Source of the DNA: an uncultured Acidobacteriia bacterium
Lineage (GTDB): Bacteria; Acidobacteriota; Terriglobia; Bryobacterales; Bryobacteraceae
DNA length: 63,061 nt
NCBI GenBank assembly: GCA_903900705.1
Contig: CAIUOG010000041.1
Coordinates: forward strand, 1-63,061
Reading direction: 5' to 3'
The notes under the pieces were generated by a model. That model searched no databases. It was not told the origin of the DNA and was given only the letters and a program-made list of their open reading frames with translations. Position 1 is the first letter of the stretch. Each line of letters starts with the position of its first letter. A program made the position numbers and the translations under genes. Shown here in pieces: positions 11,538-52,445 of the stretch.

Positions 11538-11560
11538 GTAAGACGCAGGGGCAGGAAAGA

Positions 11561-36513: not shown

Positions 36514-37106
36514 GTCCGACTCCCTCCATTCCGCCGATTCTGACCGTTGTCGCCGGCCCCAACGGTTCGGGTAAGAGCACGGTCACTGCTCAGTTGCGCC
36601 TTCATGACCGGATGCCTGTCCTCGACCCGGACGCCATCGCCCGCGAAACGAATCCACAGAACCCGAGTCAGGTCGCGATTTCCGCGGGGCGCGAGGTGCT
36701 CGAATCCTGGCGACGCCTCATTGCTGAGCGCGTCAGCTTTGCGATCGAAACAACGCTGGCGGGGGTCGGCCCACTGGTGCGCATCCGCGAGGCCCGCGAC
36801 GCCAAGTATCTGATTCACGTCCATTATGTCGCCATCGACACCCGGGAGCTCAACATCGAGCGCGTTCGCCGCAGGGTTCTTCAGGGTGGTCACGGGATTC
36901 CGGAACGCGACATCCGGCGCCGCTATGAGCGAAGTCTTGCGAATGCCGCACAAGTGCTTGCCCTGGCCGAACGAGCCATATTGCTGGACAACTCTTCGCA
37001 CCAGACGATCACGGTGGCTGAGATCGAATCGGGCAGAGTTTCGTGGACGGCCAGTTCCCTGCCGGCCTGGGCCTCGGGTATTCTCGATAGCCTGAACAAG
37101 GCCTGA
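36510..37106 (+). CDS. Zeta-toxin-like P-loop kinase
   Basis: Zeta-type toxins phosphorylate UDP-N-acetylglucosamine (or other substrates) and poison wall synthesis. The Walker A motif GPNGSGKST lies at residues 16-24, followed by the family features LDPDAIARETNP, SFAIETTLAG and the basic lid segment RRRVLQGGHGIPERDIRRRYERS. The total is about 198 residues if translation begins at CTG 36510, which overlaps the preceding TGA (CTGA). No ATG, GTG or TTG occurs in frame before the P-loop, and TTG 36594 would remove it. The true start must be non-canonical, or an upstream slip joins the two genes. Confidence 0.8.
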   Translation: MSPTPSIPPILTVVAGPNGSGKSTVTAQLRLHDRMPVLDPDAIARETNPQNPSQVAISAGREVLESWRRLIAERVSFAIETTLAGVGPLVRIREARDAKYLIHVHYVAIDTRELNIERVRRRVLQGGHGIPERDIRRRYERSLANAAQVLALAERAILLDNSSHQTITVAEIESGRVSWTASSLPAWASGILDSLNKA

Positions 37107-37300
37107 CCCGGCCCACTACTGAGGGTGCCCCAAAGTGGTTAACGACTACTCCGCAATCAAATCGGAAGTGGTCTTCCGCGCGGGACTTCCGACTTGGCCA
37201 ACTACTCCGAGCGCAAACGCGCCGTCCCCGGCGAATAGATCGTAGCGTGTTATGGTTCGGAGCACGCGCCAGATTTGGATTTCTTGCGCTTGCACCGAAG

Positions 37301-38019
37301 ATGAGCGAACCGACTGACAACGAACCGGACCTTGATCGCATCCATGACCTGTTTGCAGACGAAGAGATGGCCCTTGCGGACGCGCGATCAAAGGTCGTGT
37401 GGCATGAACATCGACTGGCGGAACTGACAAAAGCCCATCCGGATGTCGCGGCACTTCGTCAGCCCCCCTGGACACCACGCTGGCCACCCTACGAGGAGAC
37501 CATCTAAATGCCATTCTGCATCGCATCAATCCGCAGCTGAAGCTGACTGGCGAAGAAGAAGATTACTGGCTGCAACTCTGGGATTATGCCCGCGCCAATC
37601 TCGGCGTCACCGAGGATCAGTTCGACGACATAACGAGGGCGAGGTTGGCCGGTATCGTTGACGCCAGGCTTCCCGAGATTCTCGCAACGCAGAAAACTCA
37701 GACGTGGTCCCGCTCGCGGAATCCCGGCACGGCGGCGCTTTACGACAGGGTCCGCGAATTGAAGAATGCCGGACACACCCAATTGCAGATGTGCGAGCGT
37801 CTGGACGCACAGAAATGGCCGCTGCCAGACCTCGTTGCGTGGCGGGACCTGACGTGGCGGGCGGCTTTCCTGTCGCCCAAGTACAACGGCGCCGTCAAAA
37901 AGTGGCTCTCGAAAATCACCTCGGTTACCTCGCAGACACTTTCTGAATCCCCGCAGCCCGCTCAATTCACAGGACATAGACTGCTACCCCGAGTTACCCT
38001 CCGTTTTCATTCCTGTTAG
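37301..38019 (+). pseudogene. Unknown island gene, probably frameshifted in a C6 tract
   Basis: The first part reads from ATG 37301 in one frame (67 codons, acidic and helical, with EEMALADARSKVVWHEHRLA). The second part reads in another frame from the C6 tract at 37463-37468 to the stop at 38019 (about 185 codons, with ITRARLAGIVDARLPEI). Adding one C to that tract joins both into a single protein of about 239 residues. No canonical start codon with an SD is found at the beginning of the second part, which argues for one broken gene rather than two. I do not recognise a domain. It lies between the zeta toxin and the HTH gene. Confidence 0.55.
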
Positions 38020-38040
38020 GTGCCAGTACGCTCGTCGTAT

Positions 38041-38277
38041 ATGCCGAACGCATCGAATCGCAATCAGGAATCCGCCGCAGTAAAGCGCCGTTTCGGAAGC
38101 GAAGCCGACGTGGCAACGCTCACCGGGCTCTCGCGACGCACTCTGCAAAAAGATCGTCTGCTGGGCAACGACCGTTTCCCCTTCTACAGGTCCGGCGGCC
38201 GGATCCTCTATGACCTCGATGAGGTCGAGGCGGCGATACGCTCCAGCCGCGCCGGATCGAGCAGGGGGAGACTGTGA
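38041..38277 (+). CDS. Excisionase-like helix-turn-helix protein
   Basis: This 78-residue protein matches the MerR-like HTH_17 class found in phage excisionases and plasmid or island regulators. The core is FGSEADVATLTGLSRRTLQK followed by FPFYRSGGRILYDLDEVEAAI, which gives the HTH and the wing with the Gly-Arg turn. A basic disordered tail follows. The start is ATG 38041 (a GTG at 38020 is the alternative). It fits an island-borne regulator or recombination-directionality factor, although no integrase is in the window. Its stop overlaps the GTG of the following gene (GTGA). Confidence 0.75.
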   Translation: MPNASNRNQESAAVKRRFGSEADVATLTGLSRRTLQKDRLLGNDRFPFYRSGGRILYDLDEVEAAIRSSRAGSSRGRL

Positions 38278-38670
38278 ACGCGCCGCCCGCCGATGGGCGG
38301 AACACTCAAACGACCTTCCGGGAGGTCGAGAAACAAGCCCGAGCGTTCGAGGGAGCGAGAGTTGTTGCGCGTTTTCGGTGAAGACGGCAACCTCATTCAG
38401 CGCCTCGACTCATTGTGCGACTCCGCTGCGATTAGCCGGATGCTGGCCGCGCCGAACGCTGTGCCGGTGCGGAGACATAGCGGGGAGCTTGTGGGGATTC
38501 GGCTGTCGTCACTTGGGGACGAGCGGGGTCGCGCCGGCGAGAGGCACGGCAGATCCACCGTTACAACCGAACGGGTTCGAAACGATCAGGGCATCTACAT
38601 CGGATGGAATCGAAACCTGCAGCACAAGAGCAAATTGGGACAGGTCCCGGTTTGCGGGGAGCAACGATAA
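38274..38670 (+). pseudogene. Small island gene, probably frameshifted in a T4 tract
   Basis: A frame starting at GTG 38274 (SD-like GGGGGAG just upstream, GTGA overlap with the HTH gene) reads about 35 codons (NAPPADGRNTQTTFREVEKQ, then ARAFEGARVVARF) and then stops. A different frame, open from ATG 38293, continues from there to the stop at 38670 (DGNLIQRLDSLCDSAAISRML). Removing one base from the T4 run at 38372-38375 joins them into about 131 residues. The N-terminus of the ATG 38293 frame is Arg-rich, as expected of an out-of-frame reading. Function unknown. Its stop TAA overlaps the next ATG. Confidence 0.5.
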
Positions 38671-39596
38671 TGCGCGGCCCGGCCAGCGCCACTATCGAAC
38701 TGATCCGCTATGCAAGGCACCTGCTCCAGACGGAACATCCCCAGACGCTGCGGCAATTGCACTACGCGATCTTCAGCACGCGCGTGATTCCCTACGAGAA
38801 CACCCAGGCCGACTACAAACGGCTCAGCCGGGCTACGACGATGGCACGCAGAGCCCATCGGCTGTGGGAACTCGGCGCCGTGGATTCGGAGCCCGCAAAC
38901 AGCATTCCGCCTGAATGGATGGTCGACGAGACGCGGAACCCGGAAACGGTCAGCGTTTGGAACGATCCGATTGACTATGTCGAGGCTGTGAAACGCTCCT
39001 ATCGGCGCGATAACTGGCAGGATCAGCCGCGGCACTGCGAAGTCTGGAGCGAAAAGGCCACCATTATGGGCGCCGTCCGGCCCATTGCCGACGAGTTTGT
39101 GTTTACCTTGCGCGTATGCCATGGCTATGGCAGCACGGGGATGGAGTCGCAGATCGGAAGCTTCTTCCAGAACATCAGAAAGCCGATCACAGTGTTCTAT
39201 CTGGGCGACCACGATCCGAGCGGCCACGGCATCGAACAGGATATGCACGCGCGGGTTCAACGAGCGAGCGGAATCTGGTTTGAACTGCGGCGGCTGGCGA
39301 TTCATCCAGCCGATATTCAGACGTTCCAACTACCGCCGCAGAAGATCAAGGGCACGGATAGCCGGGCACCTGCGTTCCGGAAACAGTTTGGAAACGGAGC
39401 GGCCACCGTGGAGTTGGATGCGCTGCCGGCCCACGAGCTTCGCCGTCGGATTTCCGACGCCGTGACCGGACTGCTGGATCGGGATCGATGGGCGCGTGCT
39501 CTGGCAACGCAGGAGGTCGAGTTCACCTCGATCGCCACGTTCGGGGAGCATATGCGCACTGTCCTCGCGCCGCAGGGGCCAACGCCAAATGTCTGA
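38670..39596 (+). CDS. Compact Spo11/Topoisomerase VI A-like Toprim protein
   Basis: This 308-residue protein resembles the A subunit of type IIB topoisomerases and Spo11. An N-terminal winged-helix region has RYARHLLQTEHPQTLRQLHY, where Tyr32 aligns with the catalytic tyrosine of the TopoVIA pattern (R-x-L-x-Y). A Toprim fold follows, with an acidic Glu in CEVWSEKAT and the DxD pair in FYLGDHDPSGHG, which would bind Mg2+. The enzyme family cuts both DNA strands by forming a 5' phosphotyrosine. No B subunit (ATPase) is nearby. ATG 38670 overlaps the previous stop (TAATG), and GGGGAG lies upstream at 38656-38661. Compact members of this family without a B subunit are known from mobile elements. 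The DNA-cutting role is inferred. Confidence 0.65.
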   Translation: MRGPASATIELIRYARHLLQTEHPQTLRQLHYAIFSTRVIPYENTQADYKRLSRATTMARRAHRLWELGAVDSEPANSIPPEWMVDETRNPETVSVWNDPIDYVEAVKRSYRRDNWQDQPRHCEVWSEKATIMGAVRPIADEFVFTLRVCHGYGSTGMESQIGSFFQNIRKPITVFYLGDHDPSGHGIEQDMHARVQRASGIWFELRRLAIHPADIQTFQLPPQKIKGTDSRAPAFRKQFGNGAATVELDALPAHELRRRISDAVTGLLDRDRWARALATQEVEFTSIATFGEHMRTVLAPQGPTPNV

Positions 39597-39797
39597 TCCG
39601 CTCCGCCAGTCCGATCAGCATTACGATTCCTCTTCGTGGCTGGAGCTACTCAAGCATCCGCGCTGCTGTTAATCGTTTCCGCCGGCGCGCTGATGTCGGT
39701 AAGCCGCGCCGCCGCAGGAGGGTGAGGCGGCGAAAAGCCTGCCCGGAAATACACAGAATTCTCCGATTCCAAATTCCATCCGGGGTATAAATTCTGT
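39597..39797. other. Right edge of the island, no gene seen
   Basis: This 201-bp spacer separates the island genes from the CHAT-sigma block. It contains no recognisable gene. No inverted repeat or copy of the tRNA-Glu end marks a clean boundary. A promoter for the CHAT gene is expected here, but I cannot assign one with confidence. Confidence 0.35.
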
Positions 39798-42787
39798 ATG
39801 CGACTGGCGGCAGCAGCCTGGATGCTTTGGATATTGGTTTACGCGGACGCTGAGAGTCCGGGCACCGCGCTCAGGCCGGGCGTGCGCGAGCAGGCGCGGC
39901 TTGCCGGCGGTGCGCCGGTGAGGTTCACGGTTGCGCTGTCGGCGGGTGAGGCTGCGTGGATAACGGTGGGACAGGGTGAGTCTGACCTGCGAATCAAGGT
40001 CTCCTATCCCGACGGCAGTCAGGTCGCGGTTCGCGATGAGTTCGAACGCGGACGGGAGTCGGTAACGATTCTCGCGAAGCAGACGGGCGATTACACGGCT
40101 GAGATTTCTCCGGTGACGCCAGCGACGGGACCGGTAAGCTTCTCGATTGAGGCCGTAATTCACAAATCGGGACCGGATGACGAACTGCGGAGTGCGGCGG
40201 AGTGGGAAGCGAGCGAGGCAAAGCGCCTTTACAGTGAAGGGACGAGCGAATCCCGCAATCGCGCCGTGAAATACCGACTGGAGTCGCTGGCGAAATGGGC
40301 TCAGTTCGCGGACCAGTTTGCGATAGCGGCGACGCATGCGGCGGCAGGAGACGCACTCCACAGGATCAGCCAGTTCGATCAGGCGAATGATCATTACCGG
40401 GTGGCGCTGGAGGGTTTTCGAACGGAGGGCGACCGTCGTGGGGAAGGCGAGGTACTGAACAATCTCGGGCTGACTCACTGGCAAACCGGAGAACTGAAAG
40501 CGGCGAGGGAGTACTTCGGGGAGGCCGGAGCGGTCTGGCAGGAACTCCGCTTCGACTATGGCGAAGCGGCTGTGCTCACGAACCGGGGACTGTTGGAGTG
40601 GGAGGCCGGGGATTTCAGCGCGGCGCTGGACGATCATGTGCGGGCCGCAAAGCTTTTCGAGCAGCTTCGGAGCGACGCCGGGCGGGCATTTGCGCTGAAC
40701 AATGCGGCGGTGGCGCTGGAATCGTTGGGTGATCCGGCGGGGGCGCGGGAGAATCTGCTGAAGGCGATCCCCCTGTTCCGGTCGGCGAAGAACGCCCTGG
40801 CGGAGGGACGGGCACGGGTTCGGCTGGCACGCATCGAACTTCACGAGGGGAGATCCGCGACGGCTCTCCGGGTGGCGCAGGAAGCCGAACTGATGCTGCG
40901 GTCAAGCGGCGACCGGGTGGCGGAAGCCGAGGGTCTGATGGTGCTGGGTGAAATTCAATCACGCCTGCGAAAACGGACACAAGCGGCACAGTATTACGAA
41001 GAGGCGCTGCAGGGGTTTCGGGAAGCCGGGCGGCCTAAAGGCATAGTGGATGCGCTGCTGGCACGGGGGGGAGAACTTCGGGCAGCGGGGCGGATTGAGA
41101 ATTCGCGGCTCGCCTTCGGGGAGGCGGTGCAGCTTGCAGACAGGAGCGGCTTCCTCGATCTGGAAGGCGAGGCTCTGCGGCAGCTGGCCATGGTGGAGCG
41201 TCAGAGTGGCGAGCCGGCGAAGGCCGCGCAGCATTTGACCAACGCCATGGAGCTAGCCGAGCAACTCCGCAGACGGGCGCCGCAGGGGGCGCTTCGGATA
41301 TCCTGGTTCGCCGCAAGGCAGCCACTCTACCTTGAATCCCTCGATCTGCTGAATGCGCGTTACCGGCGCGGGCACGACGCCGGAGTGGCGGCGGAGGCCT
41401 TTGAGGTATCCGAACGAATGCGGGCGCGCGGTCTGCTGGAAGAGCTGGCGGCGGAACGGGCAGCGACAAGTGGCGCGATCAACCCGGCTCTGGCGCGCCG
41501 GGAGCGGGAGTTACGCGCTCAGATGAATTTCTGGTACGGACGAATGGAGAAGTCGTCGGAGTCGCGTGGGCAGCCCGCGCGGGAGAGGTTCGAACGGGCC
41601 CGGGCCGAGTACCGGGATGTGGAGTCGGAGATACAGCGCGCTCTGCTGCCGGGAGGGGTGGCCGATACCGAACCGGTCACGCTGCCGGAAGTACAGAGCG
41701 AGGGACTTGATGAAGGAGTGCTGCTTCTCTCCTACGTCAGCGGCCGGGCGCGCAGTTATCTCTGGGCTGTGACGAAGCGGGAAATCCGGATGTTCGAACT
41801 GCCGGCGGGCAGCGTGATCGATGCTGCCGCGGCGAAACTGCTAAGGGCGCTCAGCGTGCGTCCGACCATGGCCGGCGACGAGGGGTATCGTGCGCCTGCA
41901 GCGGAGGTGGGGCGGATGCTGCTGGGTCCGGCTGCAGGCCTGATGTCCGGCAGGAAACTGGCGATTATCGAGTCGGGACTTTCACAAATACCGTTCGCGG
42001 TACTTCCCGATCCGGTGAGCGGCCAGTTTCTGATCCGGGAACACGATATCACGATTTTGCCATCGGCGTCGATGCTGGTGCGGAGCCGAAGAATGGCGGG
42101 AAGCCGCAGGCGACCATCGCGATCGCTGGCCATGTTTGCGGACCCGGTCTATACGCTGGATGATCCGCGAATCCCGGCGGTGAAATCGGATGCTGCGCGG
42201 GAGGAGGGCTTTCCTAGACTGGCCTATTCGCGCCTCGCCGCGGAGGCCGTGCTGCCACTGGCGCCACCGGACGCGCTGCTGCTTTCGGGGTTCGGGGCCA
42301 GCCTGGAGGCATTCCGCGCCGAACGGATCCGGCAATTTCGATATCTGCATTTCGCGACGCATGGCACGCTTGATCCGGCGCATCCCGAAATGTCGTCGGT
42401 GGTACTATCGCTGCGCAGCCAGGACGGCGAGAGGCAGGAAGGGCACCTCCGAACCGGGGAAGTGCTGAGCCATCCGCTGGCTGCGGAACTGGTATTCCTG
42501 GACACGTGCCATTCGGCGGGCGGACAATATGTTCCCGGGGAAGGGCTGGAAGGTCTGACGAGCAGTTTTCTCGCGGGGGGGCGCTGCGCGTGTCCGGCAA
42601 CCTGTGGGAGGTGAACGACGAGGCTGCCGGGGAACTGGTTGAGAGGTTCTACCGGAAGCTGTTCGGCAACAGAAACGCGACACCAGCCGGAGCGATGCGT
42701 TCGGCGCAGGTTGCACTTGCGGACGGACGTCGTTTCAGGCATCCTTACTACTGGTCCGGATACAGGCTTTACGGAGACTACCGCTAG
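39798..42787 (+). pseudogene. TPR-CHAT protease, frameshifted near the C-terminus
   Basis: The reading frame encodes a short N-terminal hydrophobic segment, a beta-sandwich-like domain (about residues 25-125), many TPRs (about 155-490) and a CHAT caspase-like protease domain (about 640-990). The catalytic dyad is intact: His855 in HFATHGTL and Cys904 in LDTCHSAGG. The frame is then lost in a G7 tract at 42575-42581. One more G would restore the family C-terminus (LRVSGNLWEVNDEAAGELVE, HPYYWSGYRLYGDYR) and a 996-residue product. As written, the protein ends about 22 residues after Cys904 and lacks the last strands of the fold. The corrected stop abuts the sigma gene. CHAT enzymes cleave partner proteins after activation. 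Confidence 0.8.
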
Positions 42788-43321
42788 ATGAAGATCGCAG
42801 CCGGTGCAGTACCAACAGGACTGTCGGGACTCTTCGACACCGACCCTCACACGGCGGAGAATAAGTGCGCGGAACTGTGGCTGGATCTCGTCCGATATCT
42901 GCGGTGGCAGGGTCATCCGTGTCCTGAGGACGGGGCACAGGAGGCTCTATCCCGCGGTCTTGAAAAAGCCGGCGTGGAATATCCGTGGGAGGAGTTACGG
43001 AAGGACCCCCGAAAATACTTTTTCGGGTTCGCCTGGTGCGTTGCAAGAGAGGGGTGGCGAACGTCGCGCGAAGTTCCGCTCGAGGGCGACTCCAGGCAAA
43101 TCCAGGCACAGCAGCCGACCGTTGAGGCCAAGATTTATCTCGACGAATTGCTGGGGCAGATCGATCCCGAAGACCGGGATCTTGTGGTTCGCTATCATCA
43201 TGAGGACCGGCAGGAACTAAGCCGGAGCCTGAATATACCGATTGGTACACTCAGAGTGCAGGTGCATCGTATCTGTCGAAAGCTGGTCCGACTGGCGGAC
43301 GGCAGGCTTGGCTGCGATTAG
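42788..43321 (+). CDS. ECF-like sigma factor next to TPR-CHAT
   Basis: This 177-residue sigma-70 family protein has a region 2-like part (residues about 25-85: LWLDLVRYLRWQGHPCPEDG, KYFFGFAWCVAREGWR) and region 4 (about 115-170: DELLGQIDPEDRDLVVRY, LSRSLNIPIGTLRVQVHRICRKL). Its ATG directly follows the stop of the TPR-CHAT frame. It therefore belongs to a protease, sigma and anti-sigma operon. A simple model is that the membrane protein two genes on holds this sigma factor until the CHAT protease is activated. The sigma call is good; the switch is inference. Confidence 0.8.
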   Translation: MKIAAGAVPTGLSGLFDTDPHTAENKCAELWLDLVRYLRWQGHPCPEDGAQEALSRGLEKAGVEYPWEELRKDPRKYFFGFAWCVAREGWRTSREVPLEGDSRQIQAQQPTVEAKIYLDELLGQIDPEDRDLVVRYHHEDRQELSRSLNIPIGTLRVQVHRICRKLVRLADGRLGCD

Positions 43322-43445
43322 CGCCGGAAGTTTTTCGCACTTCATAACACTTTTCTTTTAGACATTGTAATGCCCTTCCGATCAACAGCATTAATAAGCA
43401 GAGGCAGTATTTCCTATTTTGCGGCGAGATTCCGGGAGGATCCAC

Positions 43446-44228
43446 TTGGCCCTGTACCCGCCTGATGACGCGGCAATTCGTCGATATTTCCTCGGGCCGA
43501 TGGCCGGGGAAGAACGTGCGGAATGGAACGCGGAAATGGCGAATACGCCCGAATTATTTGATCATTTCAGCGCGTATGAAGACGAATTGATCCTCGATTT
43601 TCTGCAGCACCGGCTTTCCGATGCGGACCGGCGCAGGTTTGAAGAATATTATTTGCCCGTAATGGGAGGAGGCGTGAGAGTCGCCGCGGTTCGCGAGCGA
43701 CTGGCAGGCATCCCGCGCGTTTCAGAAAACCAGCGACGGGGCGTTGTGTTACCGGCAATCCCCGCAAAACAAGGGCGGACGGGGCACAAATGGCTTTGGC
43801 CGGGCGCGCTTGCCGCTTTGTTACTGGCGGCTTTGTTTTTTGGCATCTTCCGGGGCGGAAAAACAGTGCAAGAGAGCGCGGAGACAGCCGCCTTGCTCCT
43901 GATGCCCTCCGCCCAGAGAGGGCCCGCGGGGGCGCAGAACCTGGTGCCGGCGCCGGACTCCGGGCCGGGGCGCTTTCGCTTTGTCGAAGCGGTCGAACCT
44001 GGCCCCGGAGCGCTGACAGCAACACTGCGTCGCCTCGACGGTGAGGCTGAGTTCACAGTGGCCGTGTCCGGGAAGTCCACGGCGGAAGGCTGGGAGTATC
44101 TGGTCACGGTGCCGCCCGGGGACCTGACGCCGGCGGATTACATTCTTACCGTTCGTGTGGCAGGCGCGGGCGGACCCGAAATCACGGCTTCCCGTTATTT
44201 CCGGGTCCGCGGTTCCGCGACGAAGTAA
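43446..44228 (+). CDS. Single-pass membrane anti-sigma-like protein
   Basis: This 260-residue protein starts at TTG 43446 (GGGAGGA at 43434-43440). Residues 10-90 show the pattern seen in many Acidobacteria and Planctomycetes anti-sigma-like proteins: IRRYFLGPMAGEERAEWN, then YEDELILDFLQHRLSDADR and RRFEEYYLPVM. A membrane helix spans about residues 115-135 (WLWPGALAALLLAALFFGIF). The C-terminal 120 residues are probably extracytoplasmic and beta-rich. The layout, with a cytosolic sigma-binding domain, one helix and an outside domain, suits an anti-sigma factor that could be cut by a protease. Its partner is probably the sigma gene just upstream. It is followed at once by a convergent 18-codon ORF. 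Confidence 0.65.
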   Translation: MALYPPDDAAIRRYFLGPMAGEERAEWNAEMANTPELFDHFSAYEDELILDFLQHRLSDADRRRFEEYYLPVMGGGVRVAAVRERLAGIPRVSENQRRGVVLPAIPAKQGRTGHKWLWPGALAALLLAALFFGIFRGGKTVQESAETAALLLMPSAQRGPAGAQNLVPAPDSGPGRFRFVEAVEPGPGALTATLRRLDGEAEFTVAVSGKSTAEGWEYLVTVPPGDLTPADYILTVRVAGAGGPEITASRYFRVRGSATK

Positions 44229-44285
44229 TTAACCCTGGCCGATAAGAATCTCAAGCGCCTGAACCAGAATATCGAGAATGTCCAT
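44229..44285 (-). CDS. 18-residue hydrophobic peptide ORF with a strong Shine-Dalgarno
   Basis: On the minus strand AAAGGAGGTG (complement of 44291-44300) lies 5 nt before ATG 44285 and encodes MDILDILVQALEILIGQG before TAA at 44229-44231. The SD is a nearly complete match to the 16S 3' end, far stronger than those of the neighbouring genes. The peptide alternates acidic and hydrophobic residues in a pattern that fits an amphipathic helix, recalling small membrane-active or signalling peptides. It ends one base after the stop of the membrane anti-sigma-like gene. It is too short for routine gene finders. Function unknown. Confidence 0.55.
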   Translation of the reverse strand: MDILDILVQALEILIGQG

Positions 44286-44410
44286 GGTCACACCTCCTTT
44301 CGGATGGGCCGGGCTGCGCTGAGTCAGCGATGGGGATCGCCGCGGCCCGTGCCGGTTTCCGAATGGCAATGCGAGTCAGAATCACGATTCCCGCAGGCTG
44401 TGGGAACAAA

Positions 44411-44440
44411 GTGACGAAACGGCGGGAACGCCGTTATACT
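44411..44440 (+). promoter_or_regulatory. Promoter with an inverted repeat in its spacer
   Basis: GTGACG at 44411-44416 and TATACT at 44435-44440 form a -35/-10 pair with an 18-bp spacer (TGACGA at 44412 would give 17). Within the spacer CGGCG at 44420-44424 and CGCCG at 44429-44433 form an inverted repeat around GGAA, a good position for a repressor or activator site. It lies 30 bp upstream of ATG 44471 and should drive the second half of the CHAT-sigma block. The assignment rests on sequence match only. Confidence 0.5.
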
Positions 44441-44470
44441 GAGAATCCGGTCGCAGCACCGGTCAAAGTA

Positions 44471-45385
44471 ATGGAAGCAATCGAAGAGAGTGAGATTATT
44501 CGTCGAATGCGTGACCTTGCGCTCGAACGTGGTCACTGGGCAGAAACCGCTTCCGCCGCGCGAGCGGAAAGAGACTTTGGCAGGGCGGACGAAGCAGAGG
44601 GGAAGGCGCGGCAGACAAGCCATCGACTGGACGGATTCTTCGAGGAGTTCTATCGCAGGCATCACCCGAAGCTGGCCAGAATTGCGAGGCACCTCGCGCG
44701 ACGCGATGAGGACGCCCAGGATATCGAACAACTGGCGTGGACCAGATATCAGGGTCTTCTCGCACGCGTAGACCCGGAGTACCCGGGATTCCCCCTTCTC
44801 GCAACCTGTCTGCGAACCACGGCAATCGATTACTACCGTGTGGCGGGCAACGCCGCAAAACCGGTTGGAGACGAGAGCCACCCGGAAATTGCTTCACGAG
44901 CAATTCCGCCCGCCTGCGACGATTACGAGACTTACTCCGCGCTGCTGGAACTGGCGCTGGGCCGGGAAGGAGGGCCGGCGCACGAGCGTGTCGCTTTCGG
45001 CCTGAGCCGCCTGATTGAGATACCTCCGCGGCTGTTCGTCCGGGACTATTCCGAAAAAACGCTGCAGCTGGCAGCCACATATCTGCGAAATGAATACAGA
45101 CTTGAGTCCGGCCTTCCGGAGCCCTGTCTGGATGCGGCGTTTCGGGAACTGCAGATAGACTTCGGCCGCCGCCTGGATGAGGCTGACCGGGCGACAGCGC
45201 AGAAATACACCGGGACTCCGCTGCCTTCCAGAAAGATCGGAGACGGACGGTTTCGCGAGTATTACGGAGGCCGTCAGCCGGAACCGACGGTGACACGCTG
45301 GACGGAGAACGTATTGCGGCGATTACGCAAGGCGCCTGCGGGAAAAACCCACGGTTATCGTAAGACGGAAAGGGGGCATGCATGA
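44471..45385 (+). CDS. Divergent sigma-70-like protein
   Basis: This 304-residue protein has a sigma region 2-like part (residues about 50-130: EFYRRHHPKLARIARHLARR, DEDAQDIEQLAWTRYQGLLA, LLATCLRTTAIDYYR). The C-terminal 160 residues are helical and charged (IPPRLFVRDYSEKTLQLAAT) but show no recognisable region 4 helix-turn-helix. It may use a different DNA- or partner-binding domain. I chose ATG 44471, just downstream of a good promoter; a frame extends upstream to 44330 but would begin inside that promoter region. The stop overlaps the next ATG (ATGA). Pairing with the zinc-finger protein downstream is typical of sigma and anti-sigma pairs. Confidence 0.6.
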   Translation: MEAIEESEIIRRMRDLALERGHWAETASAARAERDFGRADEAEGKARQTSHRLDGFFEEFYRRHHPKLARIARHLARRDEDAQDIEQLAWTRYQGLLARVDPEYPGFPLLATCLRTTAIDYYRVAGNAAKPVGDESHPEIASRAIPPACDDYETYSALLELALGREGGPAHERVAFGLSRLIEIPPRLFVRDYSEKTLQLAATYLRNEYRLESGLPEPCLDAAFRELQIDFGRRLDEADRATAQKYTGTPLPSRKIGDGRFREYYGGRQPEPTVTRWTENVLRRLRKAPAGKTHGYRKTERGHA

Positions 45386-46080
45386 GCAGTATGACGGGAA
45401 GCGCAGGCGGCGACTGCCCCGGGTGGGAAACACTGGTCAGCTATTTCCAGATGGAGTTGCCCGAAGCGGAAGCAGCGGTTGTGGACGAGCATTTCGGGCA
45501 CTGTGATCTGTGCGTGGATATTTCCCGGGCGGCTCATGCAAGGGCGCTCGCACTCGACAACTGGACGGCGGCGTCGCATGGCGCGGCATGGAAGCGAAAG
45601 CGGATTGCCGAAGCGGTGGAGGAGATTTCGGGGCGGCCTGACGAACGGCTGGCGGAGCAACTGAAAGAATGGGGCAGAAATCTTCGGCAGGCCACGGCGG
45701 GCGCTCTGGAACTGCTGGGGGATCTGAAACTGGCGACCGCCGGTCTGGCGGACATCGTCCGGCCGGGTGGGTGGCGCTTCGAACCGGCCGGGGCTGTCAG
45801 AGACGTGGCTGGTTCCGCCGCAGCCGGCGTCATGGTAAGCCAGACCAACGGTCTGCGAGTGGAAGTACTCGCCGGCGGTGAGCTGCGAATCGTTGCCCCG
45901 GAATGGCCAAAGGATCAGACGCTTCCCTCTGTGATGGTGATCGACAAAGCCGGAAGGCAGCCTGCCATCATCCTTGAACTGACCCAGGAGGCCAACTCCG
46001 GCGTATGCTCCGGCACCGTCCCCGCCATGCATAGCGAAGCGCTGATAATTTTCCTGACGAATCTGGGCGAACGAATGTAA
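45382..46080 (+). CDS. Soluble zinc-finger anti-sigma-like protein
   Basis: This 232-residue protein begins with an anti-sigma ZAS motif of the zf-HC2 type: CPGWETLVSYFQMELPEAEA followed by HFGHCDLC, giving the HxxxCxxC zinc ligands. No membrane helix is visible, unlike the anti-sigma-like protein upstream, so it should be cytosolic. The C-terminal domain is beta-rich (LRVEVLAGGELRIVAPE). It overlaps the sigma-like gene by 4 bp, which suggests equimolar synthesis. It lies 94 bp upstream of the second CHAT gene, so it could be that protease's substrate, which is inference. Confidence 0.7.
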   Translation: MSSMTGSAGGDCPGWETLVSYFQMELPEAEAAVVDEHFGHCDLCVDISRAAHARALALDNWTAASHGAAWKRKRIAEAVEEISGRPDERLAEQLKEWGRNLRQATAGALELLGDLKLATAGLADIVRPGGWRFEPAGAVRDVAGSAAAGVMVSQTNGLRVEVLAGGELRIVAPEWPKDQTLPSVMVIDKAGRQPAIILELTQEANSGVCSGTVPAMHSEALIIFLTNLGERM

Positions 46081-46174
46081 TACGCCCGAGCCCTGTCGCA
46101 TTACCTATTTGGCCAGATCCCTTTCCCGCTGAGTCGCTGAGGCTAAGCAGAGAAGTCCGAAGGCCGGAGAAGGT

Positions 46175-48541
46175 ATGCAGCCGCTCACCACACTTTCCGT
46201 CACACGAATCGGCTCCGGGCTTTACAGCTTCCAACTCGAACGTCCGCCGGATGAGAACAGCCCGTTCGCGGCGCCATTTGTGCCGTACGCGCAGGTCAGA
46301 GTGGCGGACGATGTGGTGCGTCTGCTGATTGATCAGGTTGGGGCGGCGATCGAGGCGGGAGGCAGGCGAAGCCAGGGTGGGCATGCTCTACCCTTCGTTG
46401 ATACCGGGAAGGCTCTGTTCGACGCGTTGCTGCCGAGCGCGACGCCGGGTGTGCGCGATCTGCGCGACGCGGTGCGCAGCCTTGCCACGCCGTTGCTTCT
46501 GTCGACGAACGATCCTGACATTCCCTGGGAGCTGATGCACGACGGGGATGGCTTTCTCGGAACCAAGCACTCTCTGGGACGGAGTTTGCGCGATGCCTGG
46601 GACCCGGGACGCTCCGGTGCGGCGATTCGGACCGAGAGGGAGCGGCGCTGCCTGCTGGTGGCGGATCCGACCGGCGACCTGCCGAGCGCATTGGAGGAAG
46701 CGTCGGCGCTGCGACGGCAGTTCGCGGATCGCGGAATTTCGTGCGAGTGTCTGGCGGGGGATGAGGCCACTTTCGAAGCGGTGCTGAACCGTCTGGTGGG
46801 GAGTGAATTCTCCATGTTTCACTACGCCGGACACGTGGCGGTGGAAGAGGACCCGGAGGAGTATGCGCTGGCGCTGGCGGGACGGCGCACGTTGCGTTCG
46901 AGCGCCATTGAAAGGCTGACGCGCGCGCCCGAGGTGGTCTTTCTGAACGGCTGCTGGTCTGCGCAGATGGTGGAAGGAATCACCAGGGCGTTCCTGCGCG
47001 CGGGCTCGCGCCTGGTGCTGGGTTCGCTGTTTGCGGCCCCAAGTCGGGGAGCCTCTTCCTTCTCCCAGGCGTTTTACAGCGTATTCTTTGAGGGCGAATC
47101 GGCGGGCGAAGCACTGCGCTCGGCCCGGAAAGCAGGCCGGGAGACCAGTAACAGTGACGCAGCCTGGGCATGCTTTGTGATGTACGGCGACCCGCGCTTC
47201 TCGCTGGGGGCCGACCCCATGGGCAGCATGCTGAAGTCGTCCGGCATGCAGAGAAGCGATTTCACGCAGGCTGCACTGGCGGATCTGGAGCGCGCCAGCC
47301 AGTTTGCGGGGGCGCGGGGAGCGATAACAGCGTCGACTCTGCTTGCCGCGCTGGTGTCGGGCGAGGAACCGCTGGTGCGGGATCGCTTACGGCAGCGCGG
47401 CGTCTCGCCGGAGAAGCTGCAGGAAGTGTTCCGGCAGGCTTTTGCGGAATCCGGTCGCAGTGGCACCGGCCGTGAGGCACTGTCGCTGTCGGCAAGTGTC
47501 CGCGAGGTATTGCGACATGCCAGCGAAATCGCCGGCCAAGCCGGTAGGCCGGCGATTTCGAGCCTCGATCTGGTGCGCGGCTTCGTGCTTGTGAAGACCT
47601 CGTCGGCATGGCAGTTGCTGCGGAGGCTGAAGATCCGGCCGATTGATCTCGATCCGGATCAGAGCACGCGGAAGGTGGGACGGGTGGGTCCCCTGAGCGG
47701 CTCCGATTGTGAGGCGCAGGGGTGGTCTGTCCTGCTGAAGGCGGCCGCTCTGATGGAGTCGTCCGGCGGGTCTCTCATCAGCACCGGTGAACTGTTCGGC
47801 GCTCTTCTTTCGAATGACGGGGGGCAGCTTGGGACGGCGCTGGCGAACGTCGGGATTCCTTTTGAGGCGTCGCAGGTGGAGGGAGCGCAGGCGGCTGCGC
47901 CGGGCGAGAAAGGCGAACAGATCGACTGTTCGGAGAATGCCAGCCAGATTCTGACCATGGCACAGGCAGGCGCGGCCGCGGGACGAAGGCTGGTGTCGGA
48001 GTCGGACCTGCTGAACGCATTCGTGGATGCCGGCGGCGGTAACACCGGAGCCTCGCTGCAAAAGCGAGGTGTGGTACTGCGGGCACTGACGTCCGGCCTG
48101 TTCATCGCCGGGGGCTTGCTGGACCTCGACCGGTTCGACGAGAACAGCCAGAAGATCCTGGAGACGGCAGGAGAATTTGCGCGCCACAAGGAGTACGGGG
48201 TGGTGGGACGAAGCCACCTGTTGTATGGCCTGCTGTGCCTACACAACGGTGTCTTCAGTTCCCGCCTGAAAGAGCAGGGCTTTGACAGCGAGCAGTTTGC
48301 GGATCTGTTCCACGCCACCATGCCGCCGGGGGTGGCCAGCGGGGCGAACGTGAGCCTGCGATACGCAAGCCTCTCCACGAGCCTGATAAAGATCCTCAGC
48401 GCGTCTGAACTGGCGGCGAAACGCGCTCCGCTGAGTTTGATTGCTGAAAGCAATCTGATTGAGGCGTGGGTCGATGACGGGGGCGGGTCCGGGGCGTCAT
48501 TTCTGGTGAGGGCGGGGGTCAGGATCAGACGCCTCAAATGA
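46175..48541 (+). CDS. CHAT protease fused to multiple Clp-N-like repeats
   Basis: This 788-residue protein has an N-terminal domain of about 100 residues, a CHAT protease domain (about 105-350) with catalytic His220 in FHYAGHVAVEE and Cys260 in VFLNGCWSAQ, then about six repeats of 60-70 residues. The repeats resemble the Clp N-terminal domain (RSDFTQAALADLERAS, then TASTLLAALVSG; LSASVREVLRHASEIA; SLSTSLIKILSASELAAK). Clp-N domains bind substrates and adaptors, so the repeats may select what the protease cuts. The start has a strong SD (GGAGAAGG at 46166-46173). It is followed 76 bp on by a MotA/ExbB-like gene. I do not know of a characterised protein with this exact architecture. Confidence 0.75.
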   Translation: MQPLTTLSVTRIGSGLYSFQLERPPDENSPFAAPFVPYAQVRVADDVVRLLIDQVGAAIEAGGRRSQGGHALPFVDTGKALFDALLPSATPGVRDLRDAVRSLATPLLLSTNDPDIPWELMHDGDGFLGTKHSLGRSLRDAWDPGRSGAAIRTERERRCLLVADPTGDLPSALEEASALRRQFADRGISCECLAGDEATFEAVLNRLVGSEFSMFHYAGHVAVEEDPEEYALALAGRRTLRSSAIERLTRAPEVVFLNGCWSAQMVEGITRAFLRAGSRLVLGSLFAAPSRGASSFSQAFYSVFFEGESAGEALRSARKAGRETSNSDAAWACFVMYGDPRFSLGADPMGSMLKSSGMQRSDFTQAALADLERASQFAGARGAITASTLLAALVSGEEPLVRDRLRQRGVSPEKLQEVFRQAFAESGRSGTGREALSLSASVREVLRHASEIAGQAGRPAISSLDLVRGFVLVKTSSAWQLLRRLKIRPIDLDPDQSTRKVGRVGPLSGSDCEAQGWSVLLKAAALMESSGGSLISTGELFGALLSNDGGQLGTALANVGIPFEASQVEGAQAAAPGEKGEQIDCSENASQILTMAQAGAAAGRRLVSESDLLNAFVDAGGGNTGASLQKRGVVLRALTSGLFIAGGLLDLDRFDENSQKILETAGEFARHKEYGVVGRSHLLYGLLCLHNGVFSSRLKEQGFDSEQFADLFHATMPPGVASGANVSLRYASLSTSLIKILSASELAAKRAPLSLIAESNLIEAWVDDGGGSGASFLVRAGVRIRRLK

Positions 48542-48617
48542 GCACAGGCCTGCGGGAATTCGGTTTTCGATACGTATTCGAAATTGTGGTGAAAACGCAA
48601 TCGGGGAAGGAACTTAA

Positions 48618-49235
48618 ATGAGTCTTTTGTGGAATATGCTGTTCGGAGGTCAGGACACCATCGGCCTGTCCATCAACCTTTTTATCGCCGCGCTTTTCGC
48701 AGTTGGCATCCGCGATCTGATGCGGGGAAGGGCCGCTATCGCACAGGAACGGATGCTGGTGCAGCGCGCTCATGCGGCTCTGCGGCGCGACCGGGAAGGT
48801 ATGCCCCCGCTTGGCGAGAATTCGGGGATGGAGTTACTGGGGATTCTCGGCATACGACATGACTCGCTGCTTGGTCACCGCGTGCTGCGGATGACGCAAC
48901 TGCGGCAGGCGGGCATGGCCAGCCGGGATGTTCTGCAGCAACTGACGAGCGAACGCGTGGGTTCCTATGGAGCCCTGGCGCGACAGATCGGCGCCAGCCT
49001 CACACTGATCGGCCTGCTGGGAACCGTGTTCGGACTGAGCCTTGCGCTGGTGAATATCGGTGACGCATCCGCGAGCATTAAGGGCGTGGACGATCTGGAG
49101 CGCCTGAGCAAGGCGCTCGCAGGCACCATGGGCGGCATGAAGACGGCCTTCGGGTGTACGCTCGCCGGACTGCTGAGCGCGGTGGTGCTCTCGTTCCTGA
49201 ATCATGTTCTGCGGCGGGAGCAATCGCTTCGGTGA
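48618..49235 (+). CDS. MotA/TolQ/ExbB-family proton channel protein
   Basis: This 205-residue protein has three hydrophobic segments. The core of the MotA/ExbB family is plain: IGASLTLIGLLGTVFGLSLA and the closing MGGMKTAFGCTLAGLLSAVV, with the Gly-rich and Thr motifs of the ion-conducting pore. The N-terminus has one helix (LSINLFIAALFAVGIRDLM). It lacks the large cytoplasmic tail of ZorA. The expected partner (ExbD/TolR/MotB type) is not found; the next frame on the plus strand is empty. GGGGAAGGA precedes its ATG by 6 nt. It is probably co-transcribed with the CHAT/Clp-N gene and could signal membrane stress. Confidence 0.8.
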   Translation: MSLLWNMLFGGQDTIGLSINLFIAALFAVGIRDLMRGRAAIAQERMLVQRAHAALRRDREGMPPLGENSGMELLGILGIRHDSLLGHRVLRMTQLRQAGMASRDVLQQLTSERVGSYGALARQIGASLTLIGLLGTVFGLSLALVNIGDASASIKGVDDLERLSKALAGTMGGMKTAFGCTLAGLLSAVVLSFLNHVLRREQSLR

Positions 49236-49359
49236 CGCGGGCGCGGTAGACCGGAGCCAGGCCCGCAGCGGTCCGCTTCGCATTTTCTTTCGTTTCCTGC
49301 GCGGGATTCTGCGCAGAGAGGAGGCCGCATACCGCGAGGCATGTAATGAGTGTCTTCAT
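49236..49359 (-). pseudogene. Truncated start of an exported protein gene
   Basis: On the minus strand an ORF from ATG 49359 begins with a clean signal peptide (MKTLITCLAVCGLLSAQ) and about 35 helical residues (QETKENAKRTAAGLAPVYRA). It then continues antisense into the end of the channel gene with an unlikely Arg/Pro/Ser composition. It looks like the 5' end of a gene whose remainder was replaced when the CHAT-sigma block arrived. It may also be a genuine short gene. The SD is weak (ACGGAA). Confidence 0.4.
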
Positions 49360-49386
49360 AATTATTCCGTGAATTGAGTTCGCCGA

Positions 49387-50082
49387 CTACCGGGACGCGC
49401 GCCCGTCATCATGCATTTCGTGCGCGGACTGATGATCGAGCAGGGAGATGAACCTTGCGGCAGCGGCCGGCACGTGCCTTCCGCCGGTCACAATTTCGCG
49501 ATTGTGCAGGCGTTCGCCGTAAACCTCATTGTTGTCGTCCAGGTCCTGGCGGAGCGTCGCGCCTTCAAGCGCCACACCGGCAAACAGGCCCTGGGTACGG
49601 GACCAGGAAAGAATGTCCGCGTGCATCTGCGCGTCTGTCTGGGCCGTTGCCGTACGACCAACCGGACCGGCCGCGACGGAGCCTTCGGCGCCCACCGTGA
49701 ACTTGTCCTCCATCAGCTTTTCCGAGCCGCGTTCGTTCATGACGAGCATGATGAGGTCCGTAGACGATGCGCCGATCTGGAAGCCAACGCTGCCGCCCTC
49801 GATGCGGACAGAGGCAGGGGCGGACCAGCCATCGTTGCTCTTATTCCGGCAGGACAGGAAGCCTTTGCCATATTTGGCGCCGACAATAAAGCCAGCCGTC
49901 TTCAGATCGGGAACAATCACGATGCAGTGGGCATGGTCCAGAAGTTCCTGCGGAATGCCTTTGTCGGGCGCGCCCATGACCTCATCGAAAACCGCAGCGG
50001 CTTCATCGAGCCGTTTGGCGGACTCGTTTCCTTTAGCGACGAGCGGAGTAAGCGCGAGGAGCGCGATAAGAAGTGGTTTCAT
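49387..50082 (-). CDS. Exported SYLF (Ysc84-like) lipid-binding protein
   Basis: This 231-residue protein has a signal peptide (MKPLLIALLALTPLVAKG) and a SYLF domain, with visible landmarks PQELLDHAHCIVIVPDLKTA, GGSVGFQIGASSTDLIMLVM and SRTQGLFAGVALEGATLRQD. Eukaryotic Ysc84 SYLF binds phosphoinositides and actin; bacterial members are exported, and their ligands are largely unknown. The last 20 residues are an Asp/His-rich tail. It is monocistronic and lies 27 bp from the truncated ORF upstream, which is on the same strand. Confidence 0.85.
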   Translation of the reverse strand: MKPLLIALLALTPLVAKGNESAKRLDEAAAVFDEVMGAPDKGIPQELLDHAHCIVIVPDLKTAGFIVGAKYGKGFLSCRNKSNDGWSAPASVRIEGGSVGFQIGASSTDLIMLVMNERGSEKLMEDKFTVGAEGSVAAGPVGRTATAQTDAQMHADILSWSRTQGLFAGVALEGATLRQDLDDNNEVYGERLHNREIVTGGRHVPAAAARFISLLDHQSAHEMHDDGRASR

Positions 50083-50333
50083 CTTTTACCTGATTTCCGC
50101 CGTGACATTCTCACGGCTGTGTTTAGAGGTGCATTTGCAAGTCCAGGCGGCGGGGGCTGATTTCATGGCGTTTGTGAGGCTTACCGTGAAACCTTGACTG
50201 ACGCCGTGACCGCGGGAGGTCAGCATGACCGGGCACCGCCGGGTGGACCGGCGCCCTTTCCGCCACCAAAAGCCCCATCGCGGTATTCGGTTGATCGGCC
50301 CCTGGCGTGCTTCCGATACCACGAGGTTTCAGG
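50083..50333. other. Intergenic region between divergent genes
   Basis: This 251-bp spacer separates the SYLF gene from the hybrid kinase gene and should hold promoters for both. No convincing -10/-35 pair, riboswitch or gene was recognised. The only clear signal is GAGG at 50323-50326, the ribosome binding site for ATG 50334. Confidence 0.4.
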
Positions 50334-52430
50334 ATGTCCACCATGCAAATCCCGACGATTGTGTCCGCTCCGATGGATGTCGTCACCGAAGTCCGGCGAG
50401 AAGCCGCCCTGCTCAAGACGGGGGCGCTGCAGAACGCAATCTTTAACAGCGCTAATTTCTCGAGTATTGCGACAGACGAGAAAGGCGTGATCCAGATTTT
50501 CAACGTGGGTGCGGAGAGGATGCTGGGCTACACGGCGCCGGAAGTGGTGGACCGGGTGACACCGGCCGACATTTCCGATCCGCAGGAATTGATTGTGCGG
50601 GCGAGGGCGCTGAGTCTGGAACTGGGGACGCCAATTACGCCGGGATTCGAGGCGCTGGTTTTCAAGGCATCGCGAGGGATTGAAGACATCTACGAACTGA
50701 CTTACATCCGTAAAGATGGAAGCCGGTTTCCGGCGGTGGTTTCCGTGACGGCGCTGCGCGACGACCCGGGCGAGATTATCGGATATTTGCTGATTGGCAC
50801 CGACAACACGGCGCGCAAGCAGGTGGAAGCGGAGCAGAAGCTGCTGGATCAGCGACTGCGGGATCAGCAGTTCTACACGCGGTCGCTGATTGAATCGAAT
50901 ATCGACGCCCTGATTGCCACTGATCCGGCCGGCATCATCACGGATGCGAACAAACAGATGGAAGCGCTGACGGGTTGCACGCGGGACGAGTTGATCGGTG
51001 CGCCGTTCAAGGATTTTTTCACTGATCCGGACCGGGCCGAGGCGGGTATCCGGTGGGTCCTGAGCGGCGGGAAAGTTACTGACTACGAGCTGACAGCACG
51101 TGCGCGGGACGGCAAGGAGACGGTGGTTTCATACAACGCGACCACGTTCCATGACCGCGACCGCAAGCTGCAGGGAGTGTTCGCGGCGGCGCGTGACGTG
51201 ACGGAGCGGAAGCGCTTTGAGCGCGCGCTGCAGGAAAACAATCTGGAACTGGAGCGGGCGCGGGCGGCGGCGGAAAAGGCGAATCTGGCGAAGTCGGACT
51301 TTCTTTCGAGCATGAGCCATGAGCTTCGCTCGCCGCTGAACGCGATTCTGGGTTTCGCGCAGCTGATGAGTTCGGAGACACCGCCACCCACGCAAAAACA
51401 GTCCGCACAGATCGACCCGATTCTGCGCGCGGGATGGTATCTGCTGGATCTGATCAACGAGATTCTGGATCTGGCGCAGGTGGAGAGCGGGAAGCTGGCG
51501 CTGTCACTGGAACCGACCTCACTGGCGGAGGTGATGACGGAGTGCCGGGCGATGATCGAGCCGCAAGGTCAGAAGCGGGGAATCCGGATGACGTTTCCGG
51601 ACTTTGAAACGGCCTGCTTCGTGAACGCGGACCGGACCCGGCTGAAGCAGGTATTGCTGAACCTGCTTTCGAACGCAGTGAAATACAACCGCGCGGAGGG
51701 AACGGTGCGGGTGGAGTTTGCCGTGGAGGCGGAGCGCATTCGCATCAGCGTGCGGGACAGCGGCGCGGGGCTGGGGCCGGAGATGCTGGAGCAGTTGTTT
51801 CAGTCGTTCAACCGGCTGGGGAGGGAGTCGACGACAGAGGAAGGCACGGGGATTGGCCTCGTGATGAGCAAGCGGCTGGTGGAAATGATGGGAGGCACGA
51901 TCGGGGTGGAGAGCACGGTGGGTGTGGGCAGCGTGTTCTGGTTTGAGCTGGGCGGGGCGGTGGCGCCGGGGCTGATGGTGGACGAAGCCGAATCGCCGGC
52001 GGCAGCGGTGCTGGCCGTCAGCGGGCCCGCGCCGGTGCGGACGGTGCTGTGCGTGGAGGACAATCCGGCAAACATGGCCTTGATTGCGCAACTCATCGCG
52101 AGAAGGCCGGATCTGCGGCTGCTGAGCGCGGGAGACGGGAATCTGGGCGTGCGGGCGGCGCGGGAGAGGCTGCCGGACGTGATCCTGATGGACATCAATC
52201 TGCCGGGGATCAGCGGGATTGAAGCGCTGCGAATTCTGCGGGAGGACGCGGCGACGGCGCACATTCCTGTGATCGCGCTGAGCGCAAATGCCATGCCGCG
52301 CGACATCGAGAAGGGATTGTGCGCCGGGTTTTACCGTTATCTGACCAAGCCCATCAAGGTGGATGAGTTCATGCGGGCACTGGACACGGCACTGGAAGTC
52401 ACGCCCCACATTGCCGTTCCGACGCGGTAG
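50334..52430 (+). CDS. Cytosolic PAS-PAS hybrid histidine kinase
   Basis: This 698-residue kinase has no membrane helices. In order it carries two PAS domains (about residues 40-160 and 185-300), a linker helix, HisKA with the H-box SDFLSSMSHELRSPLNAILG (His about 335-340), HATPase with the N-box LLNLLSNAVKYN and the GTGIGLVMSKRLVE box, and a C-terminal receiver domain with phospho-acceptor Asp in DVILMDINLPG. The hybrid layout suggests phosphorelay to another protein; no HPt domain is nearby. ATG 50334 follows GAGG (50323-50326). It lies 15 bp upstream of the receiver-phosphatase gene, its likely output. Confidence 0.93.
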   Translation: MSTMQIPTIVSAPMDVVTEVRREAALLKTGALQNAIFNSANFSSIATDEKGVIQIFNVGAERMLGYTAPEVVDRVTPADISDPQELIVRARALSLELGTPITPGFEALVFKASRGIEDIYELTYIRKDGSRFPAVVSVTALRDDPGEIIGYLLIGTDNTARKQVEAEQKLLDQRLRDQQFYTRSLIESNIDALIATDPAGIITDANKQMEALTGCTRDELIGAPFKDFFTDPDRAEAGIRWVLSGGKVTDYELTARARDGKETVVSYNATTFHDRDRKLQGVFAAARDVTERKRFERALQENNLELERARAAAEKANLAKSDFLSSMSHELRSPLNAILGFAQLMSSETPPPTQKQSAQIDPILRAGWYLLDLINEILDLAQVESGKLALSLEPTSLAEVMTECRAMIEPQGQKRGIRMTFPDFETACFVNADRTRLKQVLLNLLSNAVKYNRAEGTVRVEFAVEAERIRISVRDSGAGLGPEMLEQLFQSFNRLGRESTTEEGTGIGLVMSKRLVEMMGGTIGVESTVGVGSVFWFELGGAVAPGLMVDEAESPAAAVLAVSGPAPVRTVLCVEDNPANMALIAQLIARRPDLRLLSAGDGNLGVRAARERLPDVILMDINLPGISGIEALRILREDAATAHIPVIALSANAMPRDIEKGLCAGFYRYLTKPIKVDEFMRALDTALEVTPHIAVPTR

Positions 52431-52445
52431 GCCAGGCGCAACACG

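Follow-up and report, generated by a model that had tools for sequence, protein, structure and literature searches.

Switches in which a protease frees a sigma factor by cutting its inhibitor have been described in CRISPR-linked systems. In the type III-E CASP system, which comprises Csx29, Csx30, and CASP-sigma, the TPR-CHAT protein Csx29 cuts the inhibitor of the sigma factor (PMC10028731). In CalpL/CalpT/CalpS, a protease, an anti-sigma factor, and an extracytoplasmic function (ECF) sigma factor act together, and the anti-sigma factor is cut (PMC11417357). CHAT, subtilase, or carboxypeptidase genes lie in the context of ECF54 factors, for which proteolysis has been proposed (PMC8999054); in Myxococcus and further genera, metacaspase and sigma-70 genes share operons (PMC3501461); and the neighbourhoods of EACC2-caspases hold an ECF sigma factor and a TPR protein, with a proposed transcriptional output (PMC8195603). 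These statements follow the passages of the five papers that deal with the respective genes. Here, we analyze seven genes at positions 39798-49235 of a 63,061-nucleotide stretch (the window, contig C41) from the genome (6.1 Mb, 179 contigs) of an uncultured Acidobacteriia bacterium. Each of the two CHAT protease genes of this locus adjoins one sigma-like and one anti-sigma-like gene. The genes CHAT1, sig1, and anti1 make up module 1 (39798-44228), the genes sig2, anti2, and CHAT2 make up module 2 (44330-48541), and a gene for a MotA/ExbB-like protein follows.

An earlier annotation made from the letters of this DNA alone, here called the sequence-only reading, had listed this order of two CHAT, sigma, and anti-sigma sets, and all seven genes lie as it stated, every one on the + strand. 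Its description of the second sigma-like protein as divergent is right for the sequence and wrong for the strand. The protease-gated sigma switch of type III-E systems that it cited as a precedent is on record in the passages on CASP named above, and CalpL/T/S provide a second published precedent of this logic.

Like type III-E CASP, the locus encodes a TPR-CHAT protease, an ECF-like sigma factor, and a sigma inhibitor together. Unlike it, no cas gene or array is seen at this locus, the inhibitors are anti-sigma-domain proteins, and CHAT1 has a signal-like N-terminus. Neither Cas7-11 nor any other cas match was found among the locus proteins scanned, and region 36000-53000 contains no repeat array but only one two-copy repeat family, located inside CHAT1. 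The claim that there is no CRISPR system therefore holds for the locus and fails for the genome, as contig C126 carries Cas10 palm, Csm4, and RAMP genes (L261:6453-11634); a search for Cas1 across the genome gave no match. The CalpL/T/S protease is a CRISPR-linked Lon protease with a SAVED domain, whereas CHAT or caspase C14 proteins are found here. ECF54 loci resemble those studied here in that the ECF factor has CHAT genes in its context. The metacaspase operons likewise join a caspase-fold protease and a sigma factor, and the main text of PMC3501461 contains neither "anti-sigma" nor "CHAT." In the EACC2 systems, the caspase carries an EACC2 domain, and the relevant passages of PMC8195603 describe no anti-sigma gene. 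Caspase-sigma operons, ECF54 with CHAT, EACC2-caspase with ECF, and CRISPR-linked switches are, according to these passages, already published. Among the open-licence papers listed, we found no description of a CHAT/sigma/anti-sigma module in Acidobacteriota, of a three-part CRISPR-free module with matching of location, or of a sig2/anti2 pair with interchangeable proteases; given this scope, the absence is weak.

The linkage of the three genes was assessed in the family of the window genome. Each of the 61 family genomes searched contains CHAT, one of them with as many as 14 matches. From 42 genomes, we fetched 120 places. They comprise the listed CHAT matches that scored higher, down to about E 4e-50 and without that of the window itself, together with L072 and L073, which came from other searches; lower-scoring listed matches and unlisted ones lie outside this sample. 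As L072 has no CHAT open reading frame (ORF), 119 loci were counted. Four loci (L068-L071) had first been picked for their sigma matches and also fall within the fetched higher-scoring part. As a control, we used 19 regions of 20 kb each, picked by hand in seven family genomes. The sigma and anti-sigma profiles were grown from sig1 and anti1 of the window, on CHAT loci. Within 3 kb of CHAT, a sig1-type ECF gene was found at 68 of the 119 loci, an anti1-type gene at 63, and both at 52. At the 64 loci where 3 kb or more could be read on both sides, the values were 46, 45, and 36, while the 19 control regions gave 4 sigma, 1 anti-sigma, and 0 CHAT matches. Compared with the about 6% expected from the control density, the linkage of 46/64 has a binomial p of about 2e-41, and at ten times this density, p is still 4e-5; both values ignore the relatedness of the loci. 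Because the first profiles had been grown on CHAT loci, we counted again with a generic ECF model made from 13 ECF proteins from outside CHAT loci, which had been found by the sig2 search. This model detected a sigma gene at 37/64 loci (34 on the same strand) and gave 3 matches in the control regions. At least one same-strand trio was present in 28 of the 42 sampled genomes. Hence, the linkage of CHAT with sigma and anti-sigma genes is real. The sequence-only reading had in advance tied its module idea to co-conservation in related genomes, and this is what we observe, both in the family sample for module 1 and in the small sig2/anti2 family described below. Where both partner genes were present (52 loci), the order was sigma, anti-sigma, CHAT (S>A>C) in 35, C>S>A, as in the window, in 8, and S>C>A in 4, with mixed strands in 5.

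CHAT1 (39798-42614, + strand) encodes a TPR-CHAT protease with a signal-like N-terminus (Pfam CHAT 5.6e-29, TPR_12 3e-23) and a weak PPC domain, whose value of 0.01 is below the cut-off. The frame stops at 42614, before the final ~70 positions of the CHAT domain, which sit in another frame at 42563-42787 (+ strand; Pfam CHAT positions 218-289, 6.8e-15). The break is located at a run of seven G (42575-42581) and is absent from the sequence-only reading. The His/Cys dyad is seen in CHAT1 despite the broken frame, and the frame of CHAT2 is intact. Among 123 CHAT ORFs, 122 retain the dyad, the remaining one being a fragment without those columns. Programmed frameshifting is permitted by the G run but disfavoured, since L068-L071 keep the corresponding part of the domain in one frame with the dyad. 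Given these four relatives, the break more probably reflects an error in the sequence or a true lesion. As its frame is broken, CHAT1 may be inactive or mis-sequenced in this genome.

The next gene, sig1 (42788-43321, + strand), encodes an ECF sigma factor. The protein alone shows only region 4 (Sigma70_r4_2 6.1e-4), under the cut-off of Pfam. The profile of its family (20 members) matches the full-length ECF factor SigE at 3.4e-24, and at E <= 0.01, r4_2 was found in 16 members and r2 in 9. Both ECF regions, 2 and 4, are thus recovered through the family, the profile of which aligns over SigE-type factors. Of the five other family matches of sig1, four adjoin a CHAT match.

The protein anti1 (43419-44228, + strand) has no Pfam match at 0.01 and a single predicted transmembrane (TM) stretch at residues 126-144. 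In its family, 22 of 26 sampled members match zf-HC2 (E <= 0.01), and anti1 of the window belongs to a subgroup without zinc ligands. This subgroup (5 sequences) aligns with the zinc group (14 sequences) in hhalign at 98.9% (E 1.7e-17, 177 columns). All five members touch the NCBIfam anti-sigma model (E <= 0.05, best 1.8e-7), the window protein with 17.5 bits against a cut-off of 100. The profile link and the TM stretch together give anti1 the layout of a membrane anti-sigma factor, with an N-terminal anti-sigma domain, one TM, and a C-terminal outer domain. Profile comparison upholds the anti-sigma-like identities proposed in the sequence-only reading. In the PDB, the top match of the 26-member anti-sigma profile is 8rot_B, which matches over residues 8-128 at E 5.8e-8 and bears the name "CHAT domain-containing protein." The next matches are 3hug_B (named "probable conserved membrane protein"; its entry also includes a sigma factor), then a CopC, then the anti-sigma factor DdvA. 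In 8rot/8rw5, the matched residues of this CHAT-named protein include the TM part of the profile, and the protein, if the match is real, looks like a natural fusion of an anti-sigma domain with a CHAT protein. Unlike the loci described here, it is a single polypeptide, and its match weakens with a stricter profile. Within the family sample, no anti-sigma domain fused to CHAT was found, and the literature search returned no paper on the 8rot/8rw5 protein.

The gene set beside a CHAT protein matches the location predicted for that protein. We compared 56 CHAT proteins outside the window that are longer than 600 amino acids, have a readable start, and lie within 3 kb of a same-strand sigma gene; a signal-like N-terminus was called by a crude hydrophobicity rule. 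CHAT is signal-like at 27/33 loci with a TM-bearing anti-sigma gene vs 7/23 without one (Fisher p 2.1e-4, which is optimistic as the sequences are related). Most of the effect comes from pairs of sigma and CHAT in which no anti-sigma gene was seen, as 12/13 of these lack a signal. The window is consistent with the pattern: CHAT1 is signal-like and anti1 has a TM, and CHAT2 and anti2 have neither.

In module 2, sig2 (44330-45385, + strand) combines a sigma region 2 with a conserved C-terminal extension. Sigma70_r2 (9.4e-7) is the sole Pfam match, and the profile matches region 2 of RpoE at 3.6e-6. The gene anti2 (45382-46080, + strand) encodes a soluble anti-sigma-like protein with an HxxxCxxC zinc motif and a C-terminal domain. 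The window protein has no Pfam match and no TM. The residues H37, C41, and C44 are invariant in 5/5 aligned proteins, including that of locus L258, and zf-HC2 is over the cut-off in the anti2-type proteins of L255 and L258, as expected for ZAS/zf-HC2 anti-sigma factors. The anti2 profile aligns with the anti1 family in hhalign at 91.8% (E 7.5e-7, 55 columns), and its best PDB match is ChrR, with a weak 0.023. CHAT2 (46175-48541, + strand; CHAT 2.5e-31) carries the dyad in HYAGH and NGCWSA, lacks a signal-like N-terminus, and ends in repeats similar to Clp N-domains (ClpB N 4.2e-9; best ClpC N structure 5.3e-5). The two CHAT proteins thus differ in architecture, and a model of the sig2 C-terminus has no match to sig1, so the sigma-like proteins are of different kinds. 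Taken as a duplication, the "two copies of one logic" of the sequence-only reading found no support.

Relatives of module 2 are few. With CHAT2 alone as a query, no relative was found in genome_contigs, and in the 61 family genomes, matches apart from that to itself fell within the CHAT domain; the best of these, L073, has no sigma or anti-sigma match and was dropped as unrelated. The single-sequence search with sig2 had matches in 1/61 family genomes (the window's own) and 25/396 phylum genomes. Phylum matches other than those of the window and genome G124 were taken as generic ECF region-2 matches and dropped; four of these dropped loci (L208-L211) later served as other ECF loci for the protease check. 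The sig2 C-terminal profile matched 3 of 297, and the anti2 profile had a match in 6/38 and 2/5 genomes.

The loci obtained in this way are as follows. In genome G301 (L253), sig2 and anti2 occur with a CHAT protein, which has a TPR-like part by eye, and a DUF1598 protein. In G124 (L254), Candidatus Fischerbacteria bacterium RBG_13_37_8, they occur with an FHA protein with two Clp-N repeats and a serine/threonine protein kinase (STPK)-TPR protein, and a divergent STPK-caspase lies 1.1 kb from sig2. This Fischerbacteria set, with its FHA-Clp_N, STPK-TPR, and STPK-caspase genes beside sig2/anti2, spans L207:193-10072, and NCBI lists the lineage as a separate candidate phylum. In L255, from an Acidobacteria metagenome-assembled genome, a caspase C14 gene starts 32 bases downstream of sig2 and anti2; a PPIC isomerase and a thioredoxin-like protein are encoded downstream of this set (L255:9278-12214). 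The sig2 C-terminal model matches L255 at 7.8e-8, and L256, L257, sig1, and the sigma factor at 35274 give no value below 0.3. In BLASTP among the first three sets found, a tiny database, sig2 of the window matched G124 at 1e-9 and G301 at 2e-7, anti2 matched them at 7e-8 and 8e-15, and G124 matched G301 at 1.5e-26 and 3.9e-17. A looser locus, L258 from Candidatus Scalindua (9280-14653), contains a sigma-like gene, an anti2-like gene encoding a double zinc finger, a gene for a membrane protein with Lon_C similarity (0.001, below the cut-off), a small transposase-like ORF recognized by eye, and a caspase C14 gene at a distance of 2.3 kb from the anti2-like gene. The matches of L256 and L257 are confined to query residues 5-54, the zinc finger, and these loci have no CHAT or C14 in 20 kb each.

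At all four sig2/anti2 loci (window, L253, L254, and L255), a CHAT or C14 gene lies within 1.1 kb; as the window was chosen for its CHAT, three of the four are independent. When all seven loci are counted (the window and six scan matches), CHAT or C14 is found within 2.3 kb in five. The four other ECF loci and the 19 control regions gave no CHAT or C14 match, with a C14 model that is narrow, being built from the three caspases found here. The pairing of sig2/anti2 with a protease is real and rare. Across the four loci, the regulator pair is constant, and the protease varies between CHAT and caspase.

That related bacteria keep the same parts together suggests that the protease controls the switch. 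We read both modules as protease-gated sigma switches at a locus without CRISPR genes, one exported and membrane-bound, the other cytosolic; we hold this reading tentatively, a little short of calling it probable. In module 1, anti1 would keep sig1, the ECF factor, at the inner membrane. A signal would be sensed by the PPC/TPR part of the exported TPR-CHAT protein, whose CHAT domain would cut the outer part of anti1. General proteases would then finish anti1, and sig1 would be released. Module 2 would be the cytosolic version, in which the zinc-motif protein anti2 holds sig2 and is cut by CHAT2, guided by its Clp-N-like repeats. Cutting of the neighbouring anti-sigma protein by CHAT would be the simplest reading because the dyad is kept and because CASP and CalpL offer published precedents of a protease that cuts the inhibitor of a sigma factor.

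A serious rival is that CHAT is the output. The sigma factor would drive its own operon, the exported CHAT would be a regulated effector, for example an envelope or stress protease, and another protease would free the sigma factor. The commonest order, S>A>C, in which CHAT comes last, agrees with a CHAT gene in the regulon. So does a conserved protein, in many cases of ~240-290 amino acids, which is encoded in 24/120 CHAT loci (e.g., L137:8550-9326), often between anti-sigma and CHAT; it has no Pfam family over the cut-off in the eight proteins scanned and does not occur in the 19 control regions. At two loci, a PDZ-S41 peptidase is encoded between anti-sigma and CHAT (L100:3393-4613, by Pfam; L110:3363-4583, by sequence similarity), and it is possible that this peptidase is the true release protease. 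The C>S>A orders argue in the opposite direction, as do the 13 pairs of sigma and CHAT without an anti-sigma gene seen, the apparent fusion of CHAT and an anti-sigma domain in the PDB, and the sig2/anti2 loci, which swap the protease and keep the regulator pair. On balance, we regard CHAT as output as plausible but rather doubtful.

Several observations weigh against the protease-gated switch. The S>A>C order (35/52) also fits CHAT as a target of the sigma factor, and binding and cleavage of the anti-sigma proteins by their neighbours are what we infer. The broken frame of CHAT1 counts against the switch as well. With the stricter 14-member profile, the match to 8rot_B drops to 0.022. The threshold for the location comparison was set after the list had been seen, and p changes to 6.1e-4 at 1.9 and to 0.015 at 2.2. 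Three of the 13 sigma-only loci had less than 1.3 kb readable downstream, and 6 of the 10 loci with a TM-less anti-sigma match still have a signal-like CHAT. For sig2, region 4 was found neither by Pfam nor by profile comparison with the PDB, and the structure model is poor (pLDDT 41.7) and was not used; the model of anti2 (pLDDT 56.2) gave no Foldseek match below 1e-3. The sigma-like gene of L258 is outside the sig2 family (C-terminal model 0.014), and with 9e-5 in the anti2 scan, this locus scores no better than the protease-less L256 (2e-5) and L257 (5e-5). Finally, 16 further weak anti2 matches, mostly to the zinc-finger part, have no CHAT or C14 within about 1.5 kb on each side, a weak control because the caspase of G124 also falls outside so short a stretch.

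According to a further rival, these are conflict systems of the abortive or phage-defence type: cell death would be the work of the protease, and the sigma part would only set the timing of that death. Caspases with ECF factors and TPR parts do occur among predicted conflict systems in the relevant passages of PMC8195603, and the Fischerbacteria locus carries STPK, FHA, Clp-N, and caspase parts. However, for the eight locus proteins, PADLOC returned only a match of CHAT1 to a TPR model and weak matches of the MotA gene to ZorA models, and for ten flanking proteins one weak LmuB match, with no neighbouring defence system. The named proteins among these ten include efflux, outer-membrane, sigma, Nramp, and phospholipase-like proteins, and the presence of CHAT in every family genome searched is more like regulation than like a sporadic defence gene. 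We consider this rival improbable. The defence role suggested in the sequence-only reading has no support, as nothing beyond resemblance speaks in its favour. That abundant CHAT, ECF, and anti-sigma genes adjoin by chance or lineage habit without any function is very improbable and largely refuted, because the linkage far exceeds the control density; in its favour stands that every family genome searched contains CHAT, with up to 14 matches in one.

The MotA/ExbB-like protein (48618-49235, + strand; 205 amino acids, Pfam 9.8e-9) appears to be an accessory. The sequence-only reading had counted it into the module, but it is not conserved, as no relative was found in the 120 fetched CHAT loci. 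Its weak ZorA similarity came with no other Zor match among the eight locus proteins, which does not make the locus a Zorya system, and no partner was seen among the neighbours scanned. Upstream, a further ECF sigma factor (35274-35954, 226 amino acids) lies 3.8 kb from CHAT1. Two further upstream proteins without a Pfam match were recognized by eye as a TOPRIM-like protein (38604-39596) and a zeta-toxin-like kinase (36594-37106).

CHAT proteases are common among bacteria, and to our knowledge, few of their substrates have been identified outside the CRISPR-linked cases. A wider reading, which we consider possible but doubtful, is that sigma switches gated by caspase-fold proteases are widespread without CRISPR, in Acidobacteriota and beyond. 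They would come in two forms sorted by compartment: an exported CHAT with a membrane anti-sigma factor, and a CHAT or caspase that stays in the cytosol and is paired with a soluble zinc anti-sigma factor or with none. The window would hold both, and the CRISPR-linked CASP would represent a single case in which this older circuit was captured. The gene set beside each CHAT protease would also predict where that protease works. If the partner gene encodes the substrate, the linkage would name a testable substrate for many CHAT proteases at once and would point to a candidate ancestor of the CASP circuit outside CRISPR.

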